From Actinopolymorpha alba DSM 45243 (GTDB taxonomy: Bacteria > Actinomycetota > Actinomycetes > Propionibacteriales > Actinopolymorphaceae): DNA of 64,000 nucleotides. Shown here piece by piece: positions 18,044-63,105 of this stretch. The translations under genes and the position numbers were made by a program. The stretch spans positions 1-64,000 of the forward strand of contig NZ_KB892708.1 of NCBI RefSeq assembly GCF_000373925.1, read 5' to 3'. How positions within the stretch are numbered: position 1 is the stretch's first letter; every line of letters begins with the position of its first letter. The notes under the pieces are model-generated. The model was given only the letters and a program-made list of their open reading frames with translations. It had not been told where the DNA came from and did no database searches.

Positions 18044-18995
<952 letters not shown>

Positions 18996-36591: not shown

Positions 36592-37290
36592 CTACCGGAG
36601 TCCCGCGCGGCGCAGCACGAGTTCGACGATCTCAGGACACGCGCCGAGCGGTGCGGCGACGCCGGCGGCGCCCGCCTCCAAGGCGTCCGTCCGGACGCGG
36701 TCGGCGAAGAAGCCTGGTGCCAGGAGGTACATCGCCACGCCCACGCGCTGAGCGCCTGACTCCCGGGCCTGGGCGACCGCCTCACCCACCGTCGGCTTGG
36801 CGGCCGAGGCGAATCCGCAGAGGACGCGGACACCGGTACGCGCGCTAAGAGCCTGGGCGATGCCCTCCACCGTGACGTTCGCATCCGGGTCGGTCGAACC
36901 CGCCGCGGCCAGCACGACGGTGTCGTACGCCAACGCGCCGGCGCGGAGCCGATGGATCAACGCGTCCAGCAGGAGATCGTCTGGCCCGAGGACTCCACAC
37001 GTCCTGGCCTCCCAGCCTCGGCCGGCGACCAGGGCCTCGACCTTCGGTAGGTCGACCTTGGAGTGGTAGGCGTGGCTGAGGAGGAACGGCAGCACCCTCA
37101 CCCGATCGACGCCCTGCGTGGCGAGCGTGTCGAGGGCGGCGCCGGGATTGGGCTCGGCGAGTTCGAGGAACGCGGCGACGGCGGTCAGACCCGGGACGGC
37201 CGCCTGAGCTTCGGCGGCGACGGCGTGGGCCACCTCGGCGGCACGAGGATCCCGACTGCCGTGTGCCACCAGGAGCAGACCATCACCCAA
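36592..37290 (-). CDS. Sirohydrochlorin chelatase (CbiX/SirB family)
   Basis: About 232 residues. Two related alpha/beta halves are visible: LLLVAHGSRDPRAAEVAHAVAAE with the metal-binding histidine, LLSHAYHSKVDLP, and later VVLAAAGSTDPDANVTVEGIA. The family inserts ferrous iron into sirohydrochlorin to make siroheme. No ATG is available at the right place; TTG 37290, eight bases after gaggg and overlapping the CysG stop, is the best start, though the exact codon is uncertain. It completes the siroheme branch for the sulfite reductase upstream in the same operon. Confidence 0.85.
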   Translation of the reverse strand: MGDGLLLVAHGSRDPRAAEVAHAVAAEAQAAVPGLTAVAAFLELAEPNPGAALDTLATQGVDRVRVLPFLLSHAYHSKVDLPKVEALVAGRGWEARTCGVLGPDDLLLDALIHRLRAGALAYDTVVLAAAGSTDPDANVTVEGIAQALSARTGVRVLCGFASAAKPTVGEAVAQARESGAQRVGVAMYLLAPGFFADRVRTDALEAGAAGVAAPLGACPEIVELVLRRAGLR

Positions 37291-38515
37291 GAGAGCGCCC
37301 TCGTAGTTTCGCCAACTCCGCCGCGACCGTGACCACCTCGCCCACGATGATGACGGCGGGGGAGCGGACCTCGTGTGCTGTGGCGATGGCGACGATCGTC
37401 TCGAGGGTACCGGTCGTCGTGCGCTGGTCGGGCAGGGTGCCGCGCTCGACGATCGCGACCGGTGTCGCCGGCGGACGCCCCTGCTCGAGGAGGGAGTCGA
37501 CCAGGCCGGCGAGCTGACCAACCCCCATGAGGAACACCAGCGTGCCCTCGATCGCGGCGAGCGAGGACCAGTCGGGTTCGGCCCCGTCGCGGGCGTGATG
37601 GGCGGAGATCACGGTGAACTGCCGGGCCACTCCACGATGCGTGACCGGGATTCCCGCGTACCCAGGCACCGCCACCGCGCTTGTCACGCCGGGCACCACC
37701 TCGCACGGAACACCCGCCTCGGCGCAGACCAGCGCCTCCTCCGCGCCCCGCCCGAAGACGAACGGGTCGCCTCCCTTGAGGCGTACGACGCGCTGCCCGG
37801 CCAGGGCGCGTTCGACGAGCAGGTCGTTGATCTCGGACTGCGTCAGCGTGTGGGCCCGGGGGCCCTTGCCCGCCTCGATGACCTCGACGTCTGCGTCGAG
37901 TTCGGCGAGCAGTGCCCGGGGTGCGAGCCGGTCGACCACCACCACGTCCGCGTCGGCGAGCAACCGGCGCCCCCGAGCGGTGATGAGGCCCGGATCGCCC
38001 GGGCCACCTCCGACGAGGGCGACGTGGCCGCCATGGTCGCGGCGGCGCCGGCGTACAGGCAACTCACCGGTCTCCAGCTGGACGGCGATCCGGTCCTTGA
38101 TGGCGCGGGCGCGGCGCGGGTCGCGTCCGGCGGAGACCGCGACCGTCACGTCGTCGACCCGGGCCGTGGCGGGCGTCCAGGCCGCTGAGTGGCTCGCGTC
38201 GTCGGCGCGGACGCACCAGATCCCGGCCGCCTCGGCGTCCGCGGCCACCTGTGCGTCGGTCTCCAGGTCGCCGGTCGCGGTCTGCGCCAGCCACGCACCC
38301 GCGAGGTCGCCGGTGGCGTACGCGCGCGCCAGCCAGGTCACCCGCGGGTCTGACACGAGGACGGCGAGGTCCTCGCAGAGCTCCGGGGCGATCACGAGGA
38401 CGGTGGCATCGGCGTCCAGCAGTCCGCGAGTACGCCGGGCGGCCACCGGGCCACCCCCGACCACGACGGTCCGGAGGCCGGACACGTCGAGGACGAGGGG
38501 ATAGCGCGGGCTCAT
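37283..38515 (-). CDS. cysG: Siroheme synthase: precorrin-2 dehydrogenase fused to uroporphyrinogen-III C-methyltransferase
   Basis: 410 residues from ATG 38515, overlapping the CysH stop. Residues about 1-150 are the NAD-binding precorrin-2 dehydrogenase half (YPLVLDVSGLRTVVVGGGPVAARR). Residues about 165-405 are the SAM-dependent methyltransferase half, with HVALVGGGPGDPGLITARG, VVRLKGGDPFVFGRG and EVVPGVTSAVAVPGYAGIPVTHRG, all strong CobA motifs. The two halves turn uroporphyrinogen III into sirohydrochlorin; the downstream chelatase adds iron. Order of domains is that of CysG although the linker is short. Confidence 0.93.
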   Translation of the reverse strand: MSPRYPLVLDVSGLRTVVVGGGPVAARRTRGLLDADATVLVIAPELCEDLAVLVSDPRVTWLARAYATGDLAGAWLAQTATGDLETDAQVAADAEAAGIWCVRADDASHSAAWTPATARVDDVTVAVSAGRDPRRARAIKDRIAVQLETGELPVRRRRRDHGGHVALVGGGPGDPGLITARGRRLLADADVVVVDRLAPRALLAELDADVEVIEAGKGPRAHTLTQSEINDLLVERALAGQRVVRLKGGDPFVFGRGAEEALVCAEAGVPCEVVPGVTSAVAVPGYAGIPVTHRGVARQFTVISAHHARDGAEPDWSSLAAIEGTLVFLMGVGQLAGLVDSLLEQGRPPATPVAIVERGTLPDQRTTTGTLETIVAIATAHEVRSPAVIIVGEVVTVAAELAKLRGRSLG

Positions 38516-39237
38516 GTGTGGATGCCGCACTCGGTCTTGGTGGAGCCCGCCCAGCGACCGCTGCGCGGATCCTCACCGTCGGCGACCCGTCGTGTGCAGG
38601 GCCAGCATCCGACCGAGGGGTAGCCGTCGGAGAGGAGGGGGTTGGTGAGGACGCCGTTCTCGGCGATGTAGCGGTCGACATCGTCCTCGGTCCACCGCGC
38701 CAGCGGCGCGACCTTCACCTTCCCGCGGCGGCCGTCCCAGCCGACGACGGGTGTGCTGGCCCGGGTCGGCCCCTCGTCCCGGCGGATACCAGTCGCCCAG
38801 GCGTCGTAGGCCTGGAGTGCCCGCTCGAGCGGTGCGACCTTGCGGAGCTGGCAGCAGAGCTCGGGGTTACGGCGGAACAGCTCGGGCCCGAGGGTCGCGT
38901 CCTGCTCCGCGACGGTCTGCCGTGGGCGTACCGTCACCAGGTTGATCGGGATGACGACAGACGCCGCGTCCGCGGTGCCCACCGTCTCGGCGAAGTGGTA
39001 GCCCGTGTCCAGGAACACCACGTCGATGCCGGGAACGACCTCCGAGGCGAGGTGCGCCAGCACGGTGTCCTGCATCGACGACGTGACGCAGAACCGCGGT
39101 CCGAACGTCTCAGCGGCCCAGCGGATGATCTCGGTCGCCGAAGCCTCCTCGAGGTCGCGACCCGCCCGGGTGGCGAGGCTTTCCAGGTCACGGCCCTCGC
39201 AGCCGTGGGGCCGGGGGAGGGCCTGTGCACGGGTCAT
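38512..39237 (-). CDS. cysH: Phosphoadenylyl/adenylyl-sulfate reductase
   Basis: 241 residues from ATG 39237. The PAPS-reductase fold motif is VTSSMQDTVLAHLASEVVPGIDVVFLDTGYHF. Two cysteine pairs are present, CC in NPELCCQLRKV and CxxC in VGCWPCTRRV, together with the terminal TECGIH. The cysteine pairs are the 4Fe-4S signature of the APS-type enzymes, so adenylyl sulfate is the likely substrate. It reduces activated sulfate to sulfite, which the adjacent sulfite reductase uses. Overlaps both neighbouring genes by 4 bp. Confidence 0.93.
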   Translation of the reverse strand: MTRAQALPRPHGCEGRDLESLATRAGRDLEEASATEIIRWAAETFGPRFCVTSSMQDTVLAHLASEVVPGIDVVFLDTGYHFAETVGTADAASVVIPINLVTVRPRQTVAEQDATLGPELFRRNPELCCQLRKVAPLERALQAYDAWATGIRRDEGPTRASTPVVGWDGRRGKVKVAPLARWTEDDVDRYIAENGVLTNPLLSDGYPSVGCWPCTRRVADGEDPRSGRWAGSTKTECGIHT

Positions 39238-39380
39238 GACCGCACCACCAGTCCGACGAACTTCAACGAGAAGACCCGGGTGCAGGCGCGGCACTCCCAG
39301 GCACCATGGGTGTCCTCGGCGGGACGGAGATCCTCGTCACCGCAGTAGGGGCAGTAGAAGGGGGTAGCGCGTTCGGTCAC
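39234..39380 (-). CDS. Small zinc-ribbon protein of the sulfite reductase operon (48 aa)
   Basis: A 48-residue frame starts at GTG 39380, which overlaps the sulfite reductase stop (GTGA), and ends at a TGA that overlaps the CysH ATG (ATGA). The sequence has FYCPYCGDEDL and WECRACTRVFSL, two CxxC knuckles spaced as in a zinc ribbon. Small zinc-finger proteins are typical between sulfite reductase and cysH in actinobacteria; their function is not established. The exact fit between two overlapping junctions and the four cysteines make it a strong coding call in spite of its size. Confidence 0.88.
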   Translation of the reverse strand: MTERATPFYCPYCGDEDLRPAEDTHGAWECRACTRVFSLKFVGLVVRS

Positions 39381-41080
39381 GACAGGGCCTCCTCGGGGGC
39401 TCTGGTCACCCATTGGGCGAATCGCTCACCTGGCTGGCGCTGATCGAGATAGCTGCGTACGACGCGTTCGACGTAGTCAGCAAGGTCCTTGGAGGTCACC
39501 TTCAGGCCACGCAGTTTGCGTCCGAAGCCGGCGTCGAGCCCGAGCCCGCCGCCGAGGTGGACCTGGAAGCCCTCGACCTGCTGGCCGTCGCCGTCGAGCA
39601 CGATCTGGCCCTTCAGCCCGATGTCGGCGACCTGGATGCGGGCGCAGGAGTTGGGGCAACCGTTGATGTTGACGGTGATGGGGACATCGAGATCGGGAAT
39701 CCGCTGCTCGAGCTCGTCGATCAAGGTCTGGGCGCGGGCCTTGGTCTCGACGATCGCGAGCTTGCAGTACTCGATGCCGGTGCAGGCCATCGTGTTGCGC
39801 CGCCATCCAGAAGGCCGGGCCTGCAGGCCGAGGTCGGCCAGCGCCGCCACCAGGGATTCCACCTGGGCTTCCTCGACGTCGAGGACGAGCAGCTTCTGGT
39901 GTGGGGTGGTGCGGATCCGGTCGGAGCCGTGCGCCGCCACCACGTCGGCGACCTTGCCGAGCAGCGTTCCGGACACCCGACCGGCCACCGGTGCGACGCC
40001 GACGAAGTAACGCCCGTCCTTCTGTTCGTGGACGCCCACGTGGTCGCCGGGCACGGCCGGCGCCTCGGGGGCGGGGCCATCGATGAGCTTCCGCTTGAGG
40101 TATTCGTTCTCCAGCACCTCGCGGAACTGCGCCGGACCCCAGTCGGCCACCAGGAACTTGATCCGCGCCCGGTGCCGCAGCCGGCGGTAGCCGTAGTCGC
40201 GGAAGACGCTGGTGACGCCCCACCAGACCTCGTGGACCTCCTCGAGTGGCACCCACGCACCGAGCCGCTGGGCGAGCATCGGGTTGGTGGACAGGCCACC
40301 GCCGACCCAGAGGTCGAAGCCCGGACCATGGTCGGGGTGTACGACGCCGACGAACGCGATGTCGTTGACCTCGGGCGCCACGTCGTGGTGGGGGTGCCCG
40401 GTGAGGGCGGTTTTGTACTTCCGGGGCAGGTTGGAGAACTCCTTGCTCCCGATGTAGCGCGTGGCGATCTCGTGGATGGCGGGCGTCGGGTCGATGATCT
40501 CGTCGGCGGCGATACCCGCGACCGGGCTGGCGATGATCACCCGTGGGCAGTCGCCGCAGGCCTCCTGGGTCTGCAGGCCCACCGCCTCCAGGCGCTCCCA
40601 GATCGCTGGCACGTCCTCGATCCGGATCCAGTGCAGCTGGATGTTCTGCCGGTCGGTGACGTCCGCGCTGTCGCGGGCGTACGTCGTGGAGATCTCCGCG
40701 ATCGTCCGGAGTTGGGCAACCGTCAGCTGGCCACCGTCGATGCGGACCCGGAGCATGAAGTACTCGTCATCAAGCTCTTCAGGCTCCAGGGTGGCGGTGC
40801 GGCCGCCGTCGATGCCGGGCCGGCGCTGGGTGTAGAGGCCCCACCAGCGGAACCTGCCGCGCAGGTCGGCCGGGTCGATGGAGTCGAAGCCACGGTGGGC
40901 GTAGATGTTCTCTATCCGGGCCCGGACGTTCAGGGCGTCGTCGTCCTTCTTGACCTGTTCGTTCTTGTTGAGGGGTTCGCGGTAGCCGAGCGCCCACTGC
41001 CCCTCGCCGCGCTTACGACGGGGAACGGCGCGGGTGCGAGCCGGAGTGGCGGCAGAGGACTGGGACCCTTGGGTGGCCAT
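39377..41080 (-). CDS. Ferredoxin-dependent sulfite (nitrite) reductase, NirA/SirA type
   Basis: 567 residues from ATG 41080; ATG 41110 is possible but gives an unusual extension. Two sulfite-reductase ferredoxin-like/4Fe-4S modules are present: YFMLRVRIDGGQLTVAQLRTIAEIS and PHQKLLVLDVEEAQVESLV. The metallocentre cysteines lie in CTGIEYCKL and NGCPNSCAR, ligating the 4Fe-4S cluster coupled to siroheme. The operon (CysH, siroheme genes) shows that sulfite is the substrate rather than nitrite. The first 50 residues are basic and low-complexity. Expression is probably governed by the leader-peptide attenuator upstream. Confidence 0.92.
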   Translation of the reverse strand: MATQGSQSSAATPARTRAVPRRKRGEGQWALGYREPLNKNEQVKKDDDALNVRARIENIYAHRGFDSIDPADLRGRFRWWGLYTQRRPGIDGGRTATLEPEELDDEYFMLRVRIDGGQLTVAQLRTIAEISTTYARDSADVTDRQNIQLHWIRIEDVPAIWERLEAVGLQTQEACGDCPRVIIASPVAGIAADEIIDPTPAIHEIATRYIGSKEFSNLPRKYKTALTGHPHHDVAPEVNDIAFVGVVHPDHGPGFDLWVGGGLSTNPMLAQRLGAWVPLEEVHEVWWGVTSVFRDYGYRRLRHRARIKFLVADWGPAQFREVLENEYLKRKLIDGPAPEAPAVPGDHVGVHEQKDGRYFVGVAPVAGRVSGTLLGKVADVVAAHGSDRIRTTPHQKLLVLDVEEAQVESLVAALADLGLQARPSGWRRNTMACTGIEYCKLAIVETKARAQTLIDELEQRIPDLDVPITVNINGCPNSCARIQVADIGLKGQIVLDGDGQQVEGFQVHLGGGLGLDAGFGRKLRGLKVTSKDLADYVERVVRSYLDQRQPGERFAQWVTRAPEEALS

Positions 41081-41168
41081 ATGGTGTGCGATTCCTCGGT
41101 CGAAGGGCACGGTCGCGGATGGACGACCGCGGCGTCAGGTCGAGAAGTGAGGATGCCGGCGCAACCGG

Positions 41169-41199
41169 GCGCCCGCTCCTGCGCGCAGGAACGGGCCCT
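41169..41199 (-). promoter_or_regulatory. Candidate antiterminator/attenuator hairpin
   Basis: Downstream of the leader peptide, GGCCCGTTCCTGC and GCAGGAGCGGGCGCC (reverse strand) form a strong hairpin. It lies between the terminator-like stem at 41214-41232 and the sulfite reductase gene. Confidence 0.5.
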
Positions 41200-41210
41200 G
41201 CTGGCAGACA

Positions 41211-41232
41211 AAAGGGGGCGCCTCAGCGCGCC
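41211..41232 (-). terminator. Candidate attenuator terminator at the leader-peptide stop
   Basis: GGCGC (41228-41232) and GCGCC (41217-41221) form a stem whose loop contains the leader stop codon; CCCTTTT follows. Ribosome position on the leader could decide whether this stem forms. Confidence 0.5.
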
Positions 41233-41312
41233 TGGAGACAGAGCATGCTGCGCATGCGTCCGAAATCGAGATGACGCCGGCCCACGAGCAGGGGGGTCAC
41301 CGGCGCAGTCAT
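41223..41312 (-). CDS. Leader peptide of the sulfur-assimilation operon (29 aa)
   Basis: ATG 41312 opens a 29-codon frame ending at TGA 41225-41223. The peptide contains LLVGRRHLDFGRM and SMLCLQAR, which matches the small R-R-H-x-D-x-x-R...C putative leader peptides described ahead of sulfur-metabolism genes in actinobacteria. A cysteine codon four residues before the end could make ribosome progress depend on cysteinyl-tRNA. It lies 143 bp ahead of the sulfite reductase ATG with hairpins in between. Confidence 0.72.
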   Translation of the reverse strand: MTAPVTPLLVGRRHLDFGRMRSMLCLQAR

Positions 41313-41469
41313 GGTGATCAGGGTGCGTGACCGACGTCTCCAAAGGCAACTCCCTTGCCCGAGATGCGAGACGACCGTCTCGAATTCCGACAAGCATCGT
41401 AGGAATTGGATGGCGGCGGCGCGGGTGGTCGCATCGCTAGACTTCATGCCGAAGAAGAGGGGGTGTCCC

Positions 41470-42021
41470 GTGACCCACCCGGCGTTCGCTGTGGACCTTT
41501 GGCCAGATTTCTGGACCGAAGGTGATCTCGCCGTCCTTCCTGACGATGGGCACCGGTACGAGATCATCGACGGGAGCCTGGTCGTGACCCCACCACCCCA
41601 TGGACGCCATCAGAACATCGCGACCAATCTGATGGTGCTGCTGCACACCGCGGCGCCGCCGGGGTGGCGGATCCTCCAAGCGGTCGGCGTGCGGCTACCG
41701 GGGGCTAACTTCATCCCCGATCTCGTGGCCCTCCGGCCTGGTGCGGTGCTCGACGTCTGGCATGAGGCCAGCGATGTGGGGTTGGTCGTGGAGGTGGCGT
41801 CGGGGTCGACGCAGGATTTCGATCGCGGGAGCAAGGCGATCAAGTACGCCAAGGCGGGGATTCCGGCGTACTGGCGGGTAGCTCTTGATGGCTCGGTCAC
41901 GGTCGAGGCGTTGGTCGCTCCTGGTCAGTACGGCATCGTGGCAGAGGTGAAGCCGGGTCAGGCGTGGGAGGCCGCAGTCCCGTTCCCGGTGGTCCTCGAC
42001 CCCGACGCCCTGATCGTCTGA
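41470..42021 (+). CDS. Uma2 family protein (DUF820, restriction-endonuclease-like)
   Basis: 183 residues from GTG 41470, which follows a gaggggg ribosome site; ATG 41446 is the alternative. The family core is LPDDGHRYEIIDGSLVVTPPPHGRHQNI, then PDLVALRP and GLVVEVASGSTQDFDRGSKAIKYAKAGIPAYWRV, providing the D...E-x-x of the PD-(D/E)xK nuclease-like fold. Uma2 proteins are abundant in some actinobacteria and cyanobacteria with unknown function; nuclease activity is not established. A C-terminal remnant of a second copy follows downstream. Confidence 0.88.
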   Translation: MTHPAFAVDLWPDFWTEGDLAVLPDDGHRYEIIDGSLVVTPPPHGRHQNIATNLMVLLHTAAPPGWRILQAVGVRLPGANFIPDLVALRPGAVLDVWHEASDVGLVVEVASGSTQDFDRGSKAIKYAKAGIPAYWRVALDGSVTVEALVAPGQYGIVAEVKPGQAWEAAVPFPVVLDPDALIV

Positions 42022-42445: not shown

Positions 42446-43729
42446 TCAGGGCGTCGGCCAGCCCGGGATGGGGAACGCGCTGGTGAACTCCCGGATCTCG
42501 GCGGCGATCCGGTCGAGGCTGTCACCGTCGTCCTTCTTGCCCGCCTCGACCGCCTCGTCCATCCAGGCCGCGATCCGGGGCATGTGCTCGGGGGCCATGC
42601 CGCGGGTGGTGACGGCCGGCGTGCCGATCCGGATGCCGGACGGGGACCAGGGCTTGCGCGGGTCGAACGGCACGGTGTTGAAGTTGAGCTCGATGCCGGC
42701 CCGGTCCAGGGCCTTCGCCGCCGGCTTACCAGCGACGTCCTTGTTGGTCAGGTCGATGAGGATCAGGTGGTTGTCGGTGCCACCAGAGACGAGGTCGAAG
42801 CCCCGCTCGGCGAGCGCCTCGGCCAGCGCCTTCGCGTTGGCGACGATCTGGCTGGCGTACAGCCGGAACTCCTCGGTCGCCGCCTCCTTGAGCGCCACCG
42901 CGATCGCCGCGGTGGTGTGGTTGTGCGGACCGCCCTGCAGGCCGGGGAAGACGGCCTTGTCGATCGCCTTCGCGTGCTCCTCGGTGGTCATCAGCATCGC
43001 GCCGCGCGGGCCACGCAGGGTCTTGTGTGTCGTGGTCGAGATGACCTCGGCGTGCCCAACTGGGGTCGGGTGCACCCCACCGGCGACAAGGCCGGCGATG
43101 TGGGCGATGTCGGCGACGAGCAGCGCGCCCACCTCACGGGCGATCGCCGAGAACGCCGGGAAGTCGATCAGTCGCGGGATCGCGGTGCCACCGCAGAAGA
43201 TCAGCTTGGGGCGTTCCTTCTGGGCGATGTCGCGCACCTGGTCCATGTCGATCCGGCCGGTCTCGTGGCCGACGCCGTAGTGGACCGGCCGGAACCACGT
43301 GCCGGTCGCCGACACGGGAGAGCCGTGGGTGAGGTGGCCGCCGTGCGCGAGCTCCAGGGACAGGAAGGTGTCACCCGGCTGCATGAACGCGAGGTAGATC
43401 GCGAGGTTGGCCGGGGATCCGGAGTACGGCTGGACGTTGGCGTGGTCGACACCGAACAACGACTTGGCCCGGGAGATGGCCAGCTCCTCGACCTCGTCGA
43501 TGAACTGCTGGCCCTCGTAGTAGCGCTTGTGGGCGTACCCCTCGGAGTACTTGTTGGTGAGGAGCGTGCCGGTCGCGTCGAGAACGGCCCGGGACACGTA
43601 GTTTTCGCTCGGAATCAGCCGGATCTTCTCGAACTGCCGGCGACCCTCTGCGTCGATGAGCTCGGCGAGTTGCGGGTCGGACTCGGCCAGCCGGGCGGTG
43701 AGATCCAGCGGGGTCGTGCGGTCTGTCAT
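42446..43729 (-). CDS. glyA: Serine hydroxymethyltransferase
   Basis: 427 residues from ATG 43729, preceded by an ideal aggagga ribosome site. The PLP-lysine motif TTTHKTLRGPRGA, and YSEGYAHKRYYEGQQFIDEVE near the N-terminus, are diagnostic. The enzyme interconverts serine and glycine and loads tetrahydrofolate with a one-carbon unit. The leader holds a ZTP riboswitch, which links expression to one-carbon shortage. Length and motifs are complete. Confidence 0.96.
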   Translation of the reverse strand: MTDRTTPLDLTARLAESDPQLAELIDAEGRRQFEKIRLIPSENYVSRAVLDATGTLLTNKYSEGYAHKRYYEGQQFIDEVEELAISRAKSLFGVDHANVQPYSGSPANLAIYLAFMQPGDTFLSLELAHGGHLTHGSPVSATGTWFRPVHYGVGHETGRIDMDQVRDIAQKERPKLIFCGGTAIPRLIDFPAFSAIAREVGALLVADIAHIAGLVAGGVHPTPVGHAEVISTTTHKTLRGPRGAMLMTTEEHAKAIDKAVFPGLQGGPHNHTTAAIAVALKEAATEEFRLYASQIVANAKALAEALAERGFDLVSGGTDNHLILIDLTNKDVAGKPAAKALDRAGIELNFNTVPFDPRKPWSPSGIRIGTPAVTTRGMAPEHMPRIAAWMDEAVEAGKKDDGDSLDRIAAEIREFTSAFPIPGWPTP

Positions 43730-43768
43730 CGTCTCCTCCTGGGTCATGTGGGGCGGCTGTGCTGACCC

Positions 43769-43868
43769 AGGCACCCAGGCGCGCGGTGCCCCTGCTCGGT
43801 CGTACGGACTGCGTGCGTACGCCGCTCCCCGGTGGTTACTTCCACCTTGCTCGCGCCAGTCGCGGCAG
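43769..43868 (-). ncRNA. ZTP (pfl) riboswitch upstream of glyA
   Basis: On the reverse strand the aptamer blocks occur in the right order: GCGACTGGCG, GGTGGAA with AACCACC closing a hairpin, then CGGGGAGCGG and, after a variable stem, CGCGCCTGGGTGCC. These match the pfl motif, where ZTP/ZMP signals folate shortage. It ends about 40 bases before ATG 43729, so expression would be switched in the leader. Confidence 0.85.
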
Positions 43869-43876
43869 CCACGAGC

Positions 43877-63034: not shown

Positions 63035-63105
63035 AGGTGGAGACGGGATTTGAACCCGTGTACACGGCTTTGCAGGCCGTTGCCTCGCCTCTCGGCCACT
63101 CCACC
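63035..63105 (-). tRNA. tRNA-Cys (GCA)
   Basis: Acceptor GGTGGAG pairs with CTCCACC, anticodon loop CCTGCAAAG contains GCA, and T-loop GGTTCAAATCC is normal. The discriminator base is U, as expected for tRNA-Cys. Confidence 0.93.

Follow-up and report, generated by a model that had tools for sequence, protein, structure and literature searches.

A 29-codon open reading frame (ORF) precedes the sulfite reductase (nirA) operon of Actinopolymorpha alba, and we propose that it probably acts as an attenuator that responds to cysteine by stalling the ribosome, through the joint action of a single UGU codon and a conserved motif in the nascent peptide. The proposal draws on sequence comparison. The window analysed is a stretch of 64,000 nucleotides (contig NZ_KB892708.1, positions 1 to 64,000), in which the leader and the operon are arranged as follows:

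41223 to 41312, minus strand: leader ORF of 29 amino acids, translated as MTAPVTPLLVGRRHLDFGRMRSMLCLQAR and a stop codon
41238 to 41279, minus strand: conserved core from R12 to C25 (R-x-H-L-D-x-x-R-x-x-S-x-x-C), from an alignment of 17 leaders that were selected by a motif containing H and D, so that the conservation of these two residues follows from the way the leaders were picked
41238 to 41240, minus strand: putative control codon for cysteine, TGT, with C as the next base
41093 to 41097, minus strand: GAGGA, the Shine-Dalgarno-like (SD) site of nirA, read from the sequence
39377 to 41080, minus strand: nirA-type sulfite reductase, 567 amino acids from the ATG at 41080 (PF01077, 1.8e-60; PF03460, 1.9e-38)
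38512 to 39294, minus strand: PAPS/APS reductase of the cysH type (PF01507, 4.9e-45)
37283 to 38530, minus strand: siroheme-synthesis (cysG-like) protein, TP_methylase/NAD-binding (PF00590, 3.6e-51; PF13241, 1.3e-22)

The start of nirA lies 142 nt after the leader stop and is preceded by the GAGGA site. A preliminary description of this DNA had noted the 29-codon ORF with its stop in a hairpin loop, CCCTTTT behind it and a second hairpin, and translation, a terminator scan and the sequence itself bore out all of these. It had also set the design apart from poly-cysteine leaders, and indeed the window peptide contains one cysteine and no cysteine run. The single-cysteine design is not unique to the nirA locus; other single-cysteine leaders pass the NCBIfam model NF042934.

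Several further elements were observed in and around the locus. A 59-amino-acid ORF between nirA and cysH (39234-39413) carries two CxxC pairs and looks zinc-ribbon-like by eye, with no Pfam match at 1e-6. The palindrome CGAGACGGTCGTCTCG at 41367-41382, about 55 bp before the leader ATG, has one exact match in the window; its form CGAGACnnTCGTCTCG is found at the same place in five of the seven family relatives and in a broken form in the other two, and it is a likely operator for some regulator. A divergent, plus-strand ORF of the Uma2 type (PF05685, 41311-42021) adjoins the leader, its true start probably lying further inside. Elsewhere in the window are a ZMP/ZTP riboswitch (43766-43873) directly before an ORF (42446-43774) that by eye looks like a serine hydroxymethyltransferase (glyA), and a c-di-AMP riboswitch on the minus strand (18750-18905).

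Because the DNA is so GC-rich, a 29-amino-acid ORF is by itself little evidence, and it is the conservation before nirA that carries weight. Of 80 relatives, 79 have a leader with the motif in the 700 nt ahead of nirA; the exception within that distance is locus L045. This upholds the earlier description of a leader peptide ahead of the operon. Moreover, all eight genomes examined for the family, that of the window included, carry such a leader, and in 7/7 relatives the next gene is nirA, with 83-90% identity over the part compared. Among the matches listed, the closest nirA relative is that of Actinopolymorpha rutila (85% identity), and the leader region of another genome of the same genus (G042) is the same as in A. 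rutila. The nirA set is rich in Streptomyces and related rows repeat, such that the 80 leaders (the window's and those of 79 loci) reduce to 41 distinct 17-codon cores. Judged by these comparisons, the 29-amino-acid ORF is a genuine leader, of a kind already catalogued.

The catalogue entry in question is NF042934 (cis_reg_atten, 'putative leader peptide'). Its leaders share the core and the position of the nirA leaders, and the name of the model gives no mechanism. The window peptide itself has no match to it even at E≤10 (the cut-off is 27 bits), having L15 and F17 in place of the usual V and L. When seven nirA leaders of relatives were scanned, two passed the cut-off (Streptomyces, 32.9 bits; Thermocrispum, 37.0 bits), four scored 17.7-25.9 bits, with Kribbella at 25.9, and that of A. 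rutila was not listed. On this evidence the window leader is one that would work like the NF042934 family, to which it is joined by intermediate leaders at the same locus, and is not a scoring member of it. Five leaders scanned against Pfam matched no family.

At E≤1e-5, NF042934 matched in 8/8 family genomes and in 27 of 40 genomes of the class, our own included. In a phylum sample, for which fewer candidates per genome were scored than in the other searches, 5/119 genomes matched; all five, again including our own, belong to the same class, and five other genomes of that class had no match at this threshold. Fourteen control genomes gave no match at E≤1e-5, and the weak matches found in 10 of them at E≤10 were all below the cut-off. 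Every match at E≤1e-5 was fetched and read, giving 58 loci, and the pattern R...D..R.....C is present in 58/58. To these loci, which form the basis of a wider set, were added L117 (minus strand), a leader found beside an NF042934 match, and L084-L086, weaker matches in our own genome that were kept for their fit to the pattern and for the sulfur-type genes downstream; another 13 weak matches (E 0.25 to 9) were left out, and L158-L160 were dropped as repeats of L082, L085 and L083. The wider set thus comes to 62 leaders with 60 distinct cores, and it overlaps in kind with the nirA set. Since the pattern behind it already requires R, V/I/L, D/E, R and C, these residues are conserved by construction, whereas the choice of codon is not. 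The His of the motif is replaced by Ala, Val or Pro in 24/58 cores of the wider set.

It is at the level of codons that the cysteine stands out. The control cysteine is encoded by TGT in 58/58 loci of NF042934 matches, in 60/60 distinct cores of the wider set (58 found by pattern and two that the pattern missed) and in 39/41 distinct nirA cores, where the exceptions (L023 and L054) use TGC. A further group of loci (L170-L201) has TGT in 28/28 distinct cores, a count that overlaps the other sets. As a background, TGT accounts for 18/438 cysteine codons of the nirA genes, 8/140 of the downstream genes and 18/101 of the ORFs in the window. Even within the same leaders the other cysteine codons are mostly TGC (TGC:TGT of 20:3 at position 6, 12:8 at position 11 and 17:8 after the core). 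Moreover, the base that follows is also restricted: a pyrimidine is found after the control codon in 59/60 cores of the wider set and in 40/42 of the nirA set (C 35, T 5, A 2), the counts after TGT in 58 wider-set cores being C 48, T 9, G 1 and A 0. Third positions elsewhere in the wider-set cores are A or T in 0-31%, and at the R and D of the motif several synonymous codons occur, five being used for Arg and both of the possible ones for Asp. Since the NF042934 search works at the protein level and is blind to codons, the uniformity of TGT does not come from the selection of matches. The preliminary suggestion that the cysteine codon exerts control is therefore a likely one, given the conserved residue, the extreme codon bias and the sulfur genes downstream. 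The literature searched, to which the full text of Canestrari 2020 did not belong, yielded no description of a UGU rule; the frozen UGU control codon is the new element here and the part worth following.

A single tRNA-Cys gene, with anticodon GCA, was found among 46 tRNA genes in an assembly rated 95.9% complete; it is located in the same window (63035-63105), between tRNA-Gly and tRNA-Val. Both cysteine codons are therefore probably read by one tRNA, UGU by wobble. As a separate observation, A or T is the third base of the codon preceding the first conserved Arg in 88% of the 41 distinct nirA cores, and this Arg is CGA in 21/41; the wider set has 28% and 8/58, respectively.

Six more copies of the leader were read in this genome, three of which score above the NF042934 cut-off and three below. 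They precede sulfur-type genes, those for a luciferase-like monooxygenase, an SDF symporter, OsmC, a rhodanese, a TauD dioxygenase and an NMT1-type binding protein, and in all seven leaders read in the genome, that of nirA counted, the control cysteine is TGT. Across this and other genomes we scanned 30 downstream proteins, out of 59 leaders with a downstream ORF; these were picked by us, and the crude ORF score used may miss the first gene. Fifteen are plain sulfur enzymes, 13 are compatible with a sulfur role (transporters, monooxygenases, OsmC or DUF4395) and two, a ROK and a POR protein, have no evident sulfur link. A table of eight leader peptides of Streptomyces lividans in PMC8079986 contains no nirA leader. 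In the same table metL, the metNIQ leader listed as methionine-dependent, carries three cysteines close to its C terminus and may be a cysteine leader.

We also examined the RNA that separates the leader from nirA, in which four elements were recognised:

41217 to 41232, minus strand: hairpin GGCGC-GCTGAG-GCGCC with the leader stop in its loop, from a terminator scan and the family alignment
41210 to 41213, minus strand: TTTT tract, not conserved, the T-runs of family relatives being only 1-2
41171 to 41196, minus strand: second, stronger hairpin GCCCGTTCCTGC-GC-GCAGGAGCGGGC, read from the sequence, with no T-run behind it
41157 to 41174, minus strand: conserved distal block GGGCGCCCGGTTGCGCCG from the family alignment, which could fold on itself or pair with the two arms of the stop-codon hairpin

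The TGA of the leader (41225-41223) falls in the loop of the first hairpin, with CCCTTTTGTC directly behind. At the same place 7/7 family relatives have GGCGCG-CTGA-CGCGCC, whose stem is longer than the window's. The mean z of the stop-codon hairpin is -1.01 in the 80 nirA loci, -0.60 in 60 wider-set leaders and -0.82 in the seven family relatives, and that of the window's own is +0.7; as a general feature of these leaders the hairpin is suggestive. By eye, the sequence of the second hairpin is not conserved in the family. The distal block, in the family form GGGCGC-CCGGTYGCGCCG, is conserved, less well so in two of the genomes (G045 and G040). The preliminary description had proposed to look for mutually exclusive stems in the fold of 41080-41320, and such stems can be drawn: stop-codon hairpin and distal block could fold separately, as two local hairpins, or join in a single long helix, and across eight genomes either set of pairs is retained in 95.8% of cells. 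The region also folds better than its shuffles (z = -2.1; 3/200 shuffles as good). Most of the pairs are invariant, however, and covariation does not exceed that of shuffles, which neither supports nor refutes the alternative pairings. Rfam covariance models gave five matches in the window at the gathering score, none of them in 41000-41400.

How a stalled ribosome would be read out is where the first alternative arises, namely classical transcription attenuation, in which the stop-codon hairpin and CCCTTTT would act as an intrinsic terminator unless a ribosome stalled at the cysteine keeps it from forming. Both hairpin and T-tract are present in this genome, alternative pairings exist on paper, and a scan of 41000-41700 found the stop-codon hairpin as its only terminator-like site (1, against 0.2 ± 0.5 in shuffles). 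However, the stem has five GC pairs and is followed by merely four T, and a hairpin at the stop codon would lie under the terminating ribosome and could not form meanwhile. Comparison did not bear out termination at this element as the conserved readout. The longest T-run within 60 nt after the leader stop is 1 or 2 in all seven family relatives, none of which has the T-run of the window, and in the 80 nirA loci, the window's included, terminator-like sites (at least five T in eight) are found in three, against 1.5% of mononucleotide-shuffled sequences; a looser rule (at least four T) gives 6/80 against 13.5%. Anywhere in the 80 spacers the longest T-run is 1-3 in 66, 4 in 11 and 5 in three. 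On these counts a conserved intrinsic terminator was rejected as the readout and is disfavoured, the tract of the window may be active in this genome without being the conserved device, and we regard classical attenuation as an unlikely account of the leader. We also modelled how accessible the nirA SD is as a ribosome is moved along each of 80 leaders, one codon at a time. Accessibility rises slightly when the cysteine is reached, from 0.33 to 0.39 over the 80 loci and from 0.22 to 0.32 in 20 diverse loci of our choosing, but it falls from 0.36 to 0.32 in the window, and over the 80 loci it has no clear peak at the cysteine. An SD of at least three bases is lacking before the leader start in 76/80 loci and one of at least four bases precedes nirA in 76/80, where the start was chosen for its SD, which biases the contrast with the leader. 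A second alternative is that UGU and its neighbours are kept for pairing with the RNA downstream and not for decoding. In 30 loci of the Streptomyces type the block GCAGGUCAGAGCCGC, a short way ahead of the nirA start, is nearly invariant where the rest of the spacer varies (e.g. L020:2846-3006), and RNAalifold pairs it with the leader around the cysteine codon; these loci were chosen for GTCAGA in the spacer (38/80, 30 after long and identical ones were dropped) and are too alike for a test of covariation. In 71 nirA leaders the complementarity of the windows that begin at codons 12 and 13 to the spacer is slightly raised (z of 0.20 and 0.33, s.e. 0.08 and 0.10), below that at codon 7 (0.68), but z at these windows is 0.11 and 0.09 (s.e. 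0.11-0.12) for 59 wider-set leaders. Moreover, the pairing predicted for Streptomyces places a U opposite the third base of UGU, and TGT stays while the spacers vary widely between genes. As complementarity is not raised in the wider set, and is so only slightly in the nirA set, the UGU bias looks like selection on decoding, and we think it quite improbable that pairing explains it.

Two further alternatives concern the peptide. The leader could be an arrest peptide responding to cysteine, sulfide or O-acetylserine as a small molecule in the exit tunnel, independently of the charging of Cys-tRNA. The fixed spacing of R, D, R and C in 58/58 NF042934 matches, with synonymous codons varying at R and D, would suit such a sensor, as would the fact that a single cysteine suffices in many leaders. 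A near-invariant UGU points instead to decoding, and mycobacterial relatives respond to cysteine supply through their cysteine codons, as Canestrari 2020 is cited for in later papers; we give this possibility little chance. It seems very improbable, lastly, that the ORF makes a small protein working in trans. The strong conservation of the peptide core would fit such a protein, but the genes that follow the copies are diverse, the N-terminal part lacks conservation and the tail behind the cysteine has anything from 0 to 11 residues.

Canestrari and co-workers reportedly found, in 2020, that mycobacterial cysteine-rich leaders respond to cysteine. In the mycobacterial polycysteine attenuators the downstream ribosome-binding site is reportedly sequestered and freed by the stalled ribosome. 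Ms4527A, Ms5788A and the mycobacterial polycysteine leaderless sORFs resemble the window leader in preceding sulfur operons, in being short ORFs without an SD and in having a similar core; unlike it, they have a run of cysteines where the window leader has one. Against the model of the Ms4527A Cys-rich leader (NF042936) the window peptide scores 16.9 bits, the cut-off being 45. The work of Canestrari is cited for the mycobacterial cysteine response in passages of PMC9094748, PMC9031893 and PMC13236596, the last of which places cysteine genes of M. smegmatis under translation attenuation, and ribosome profiling of mycobacterial cysteine-rich leaders is described in a passage of PMC4633059. As early as 2005, PMC1262725 predicted cysteine-rich leaders of mycobacterial cys operons without a terminator; its polycysteine leaders, placed ahead of cys operons in Mycobacterium and Propionibacterium, are like the window leader in being candidate leaders with no conserved terminator and differ in having cysteine runs near the stop instead of one codon. 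A cysteine-codon attenuator has also been described before cysS in Rhodobacterales, the uORFC-8-2 motif (a passage of PMC8632094), and it differs in having two tandem codons, a dominant UGC and a terminator-like U-run in its consensus. With arrest peptides such as TnaC and SecM the window leader shares conserved residues at a fixed distance from the stall site, and the feature expected of such peptides, conserved residues at fixed spacing with synonymous codons left free, was found in all 58 of 58 matches. Unlike in TnaC and SecM, the stall site here would be a hungry codon, and arrest at the window leader is a prediction.

Returning to cysteine-responsive stalling, the reading that we favour, the 29-codon ORF would be a leader acting in cis. 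When Cys-tRNA(Cys) is short the ribosome would stall with UGU in its A site, a codon that would be read by wobble because the sole tRNA-Cys found has the anticodon GCA. The nascent chain would reinforce this stall through its conserved Arg, Asp and Arg, which at 13, 9 and 6 residues ahead of the cysteine would be held within the exit tunnel. A ribosome halted in this way would then shift the pairing of the stop-codon hairpin and its distal partner, such that nirA-cysH is expressed; with ample cysteine the ribosome would reach the stop codon and expression would drop. Candidate readouts are release of the ribosome-binding site, Rho-dependent termination and an intrinsic terminator.

A single control codon poses a problem of sensitivity. 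According to Elf and Ehrenberg (PMC1183508, in passages on attenuation theory), a single regulatory codon gives weak, hyperbolic control of low sensitivity, and codon choice matters through tRNA isoacceptors. If one tRNA reads both cysteine codons, UGU is left unaccounted for by isoacceptors. The sensitivity of single-codon control could be restored if the nascent chain prolonged the pause. We therefore put forward, tentatively and as a possibility that may well fail, a more general notion of amino-acid-gated arrest peptides, in which a chain of the form R-x-[HA]-[VI]-D-x-x-R would prime the ribosome and one wobble-read UGU-pyrimidine would serve as a sensitive cysteine switch for a class-wide sulfur regulon.

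The locus in the window is one more actinobacterial sulfur leader, and the comparison that it prompted offers a sharp clue to the working of the single-cysteine kind. A nearly frozen UGU in genomes that mostly use UGC is explained neither by isoacceptor theory nor by the poly-cysteine model, and the pattern predicts weaker cysteine control after one silent change. If the arrest reading is true, the peptide would supply the sensitivity that attenuation theory denies a single codon. Moreover, if the peptide motif matters too, a tractable system that joins attenuation and nascent-chain arrest would emerge from entries now named only 'putative leader peptide'.
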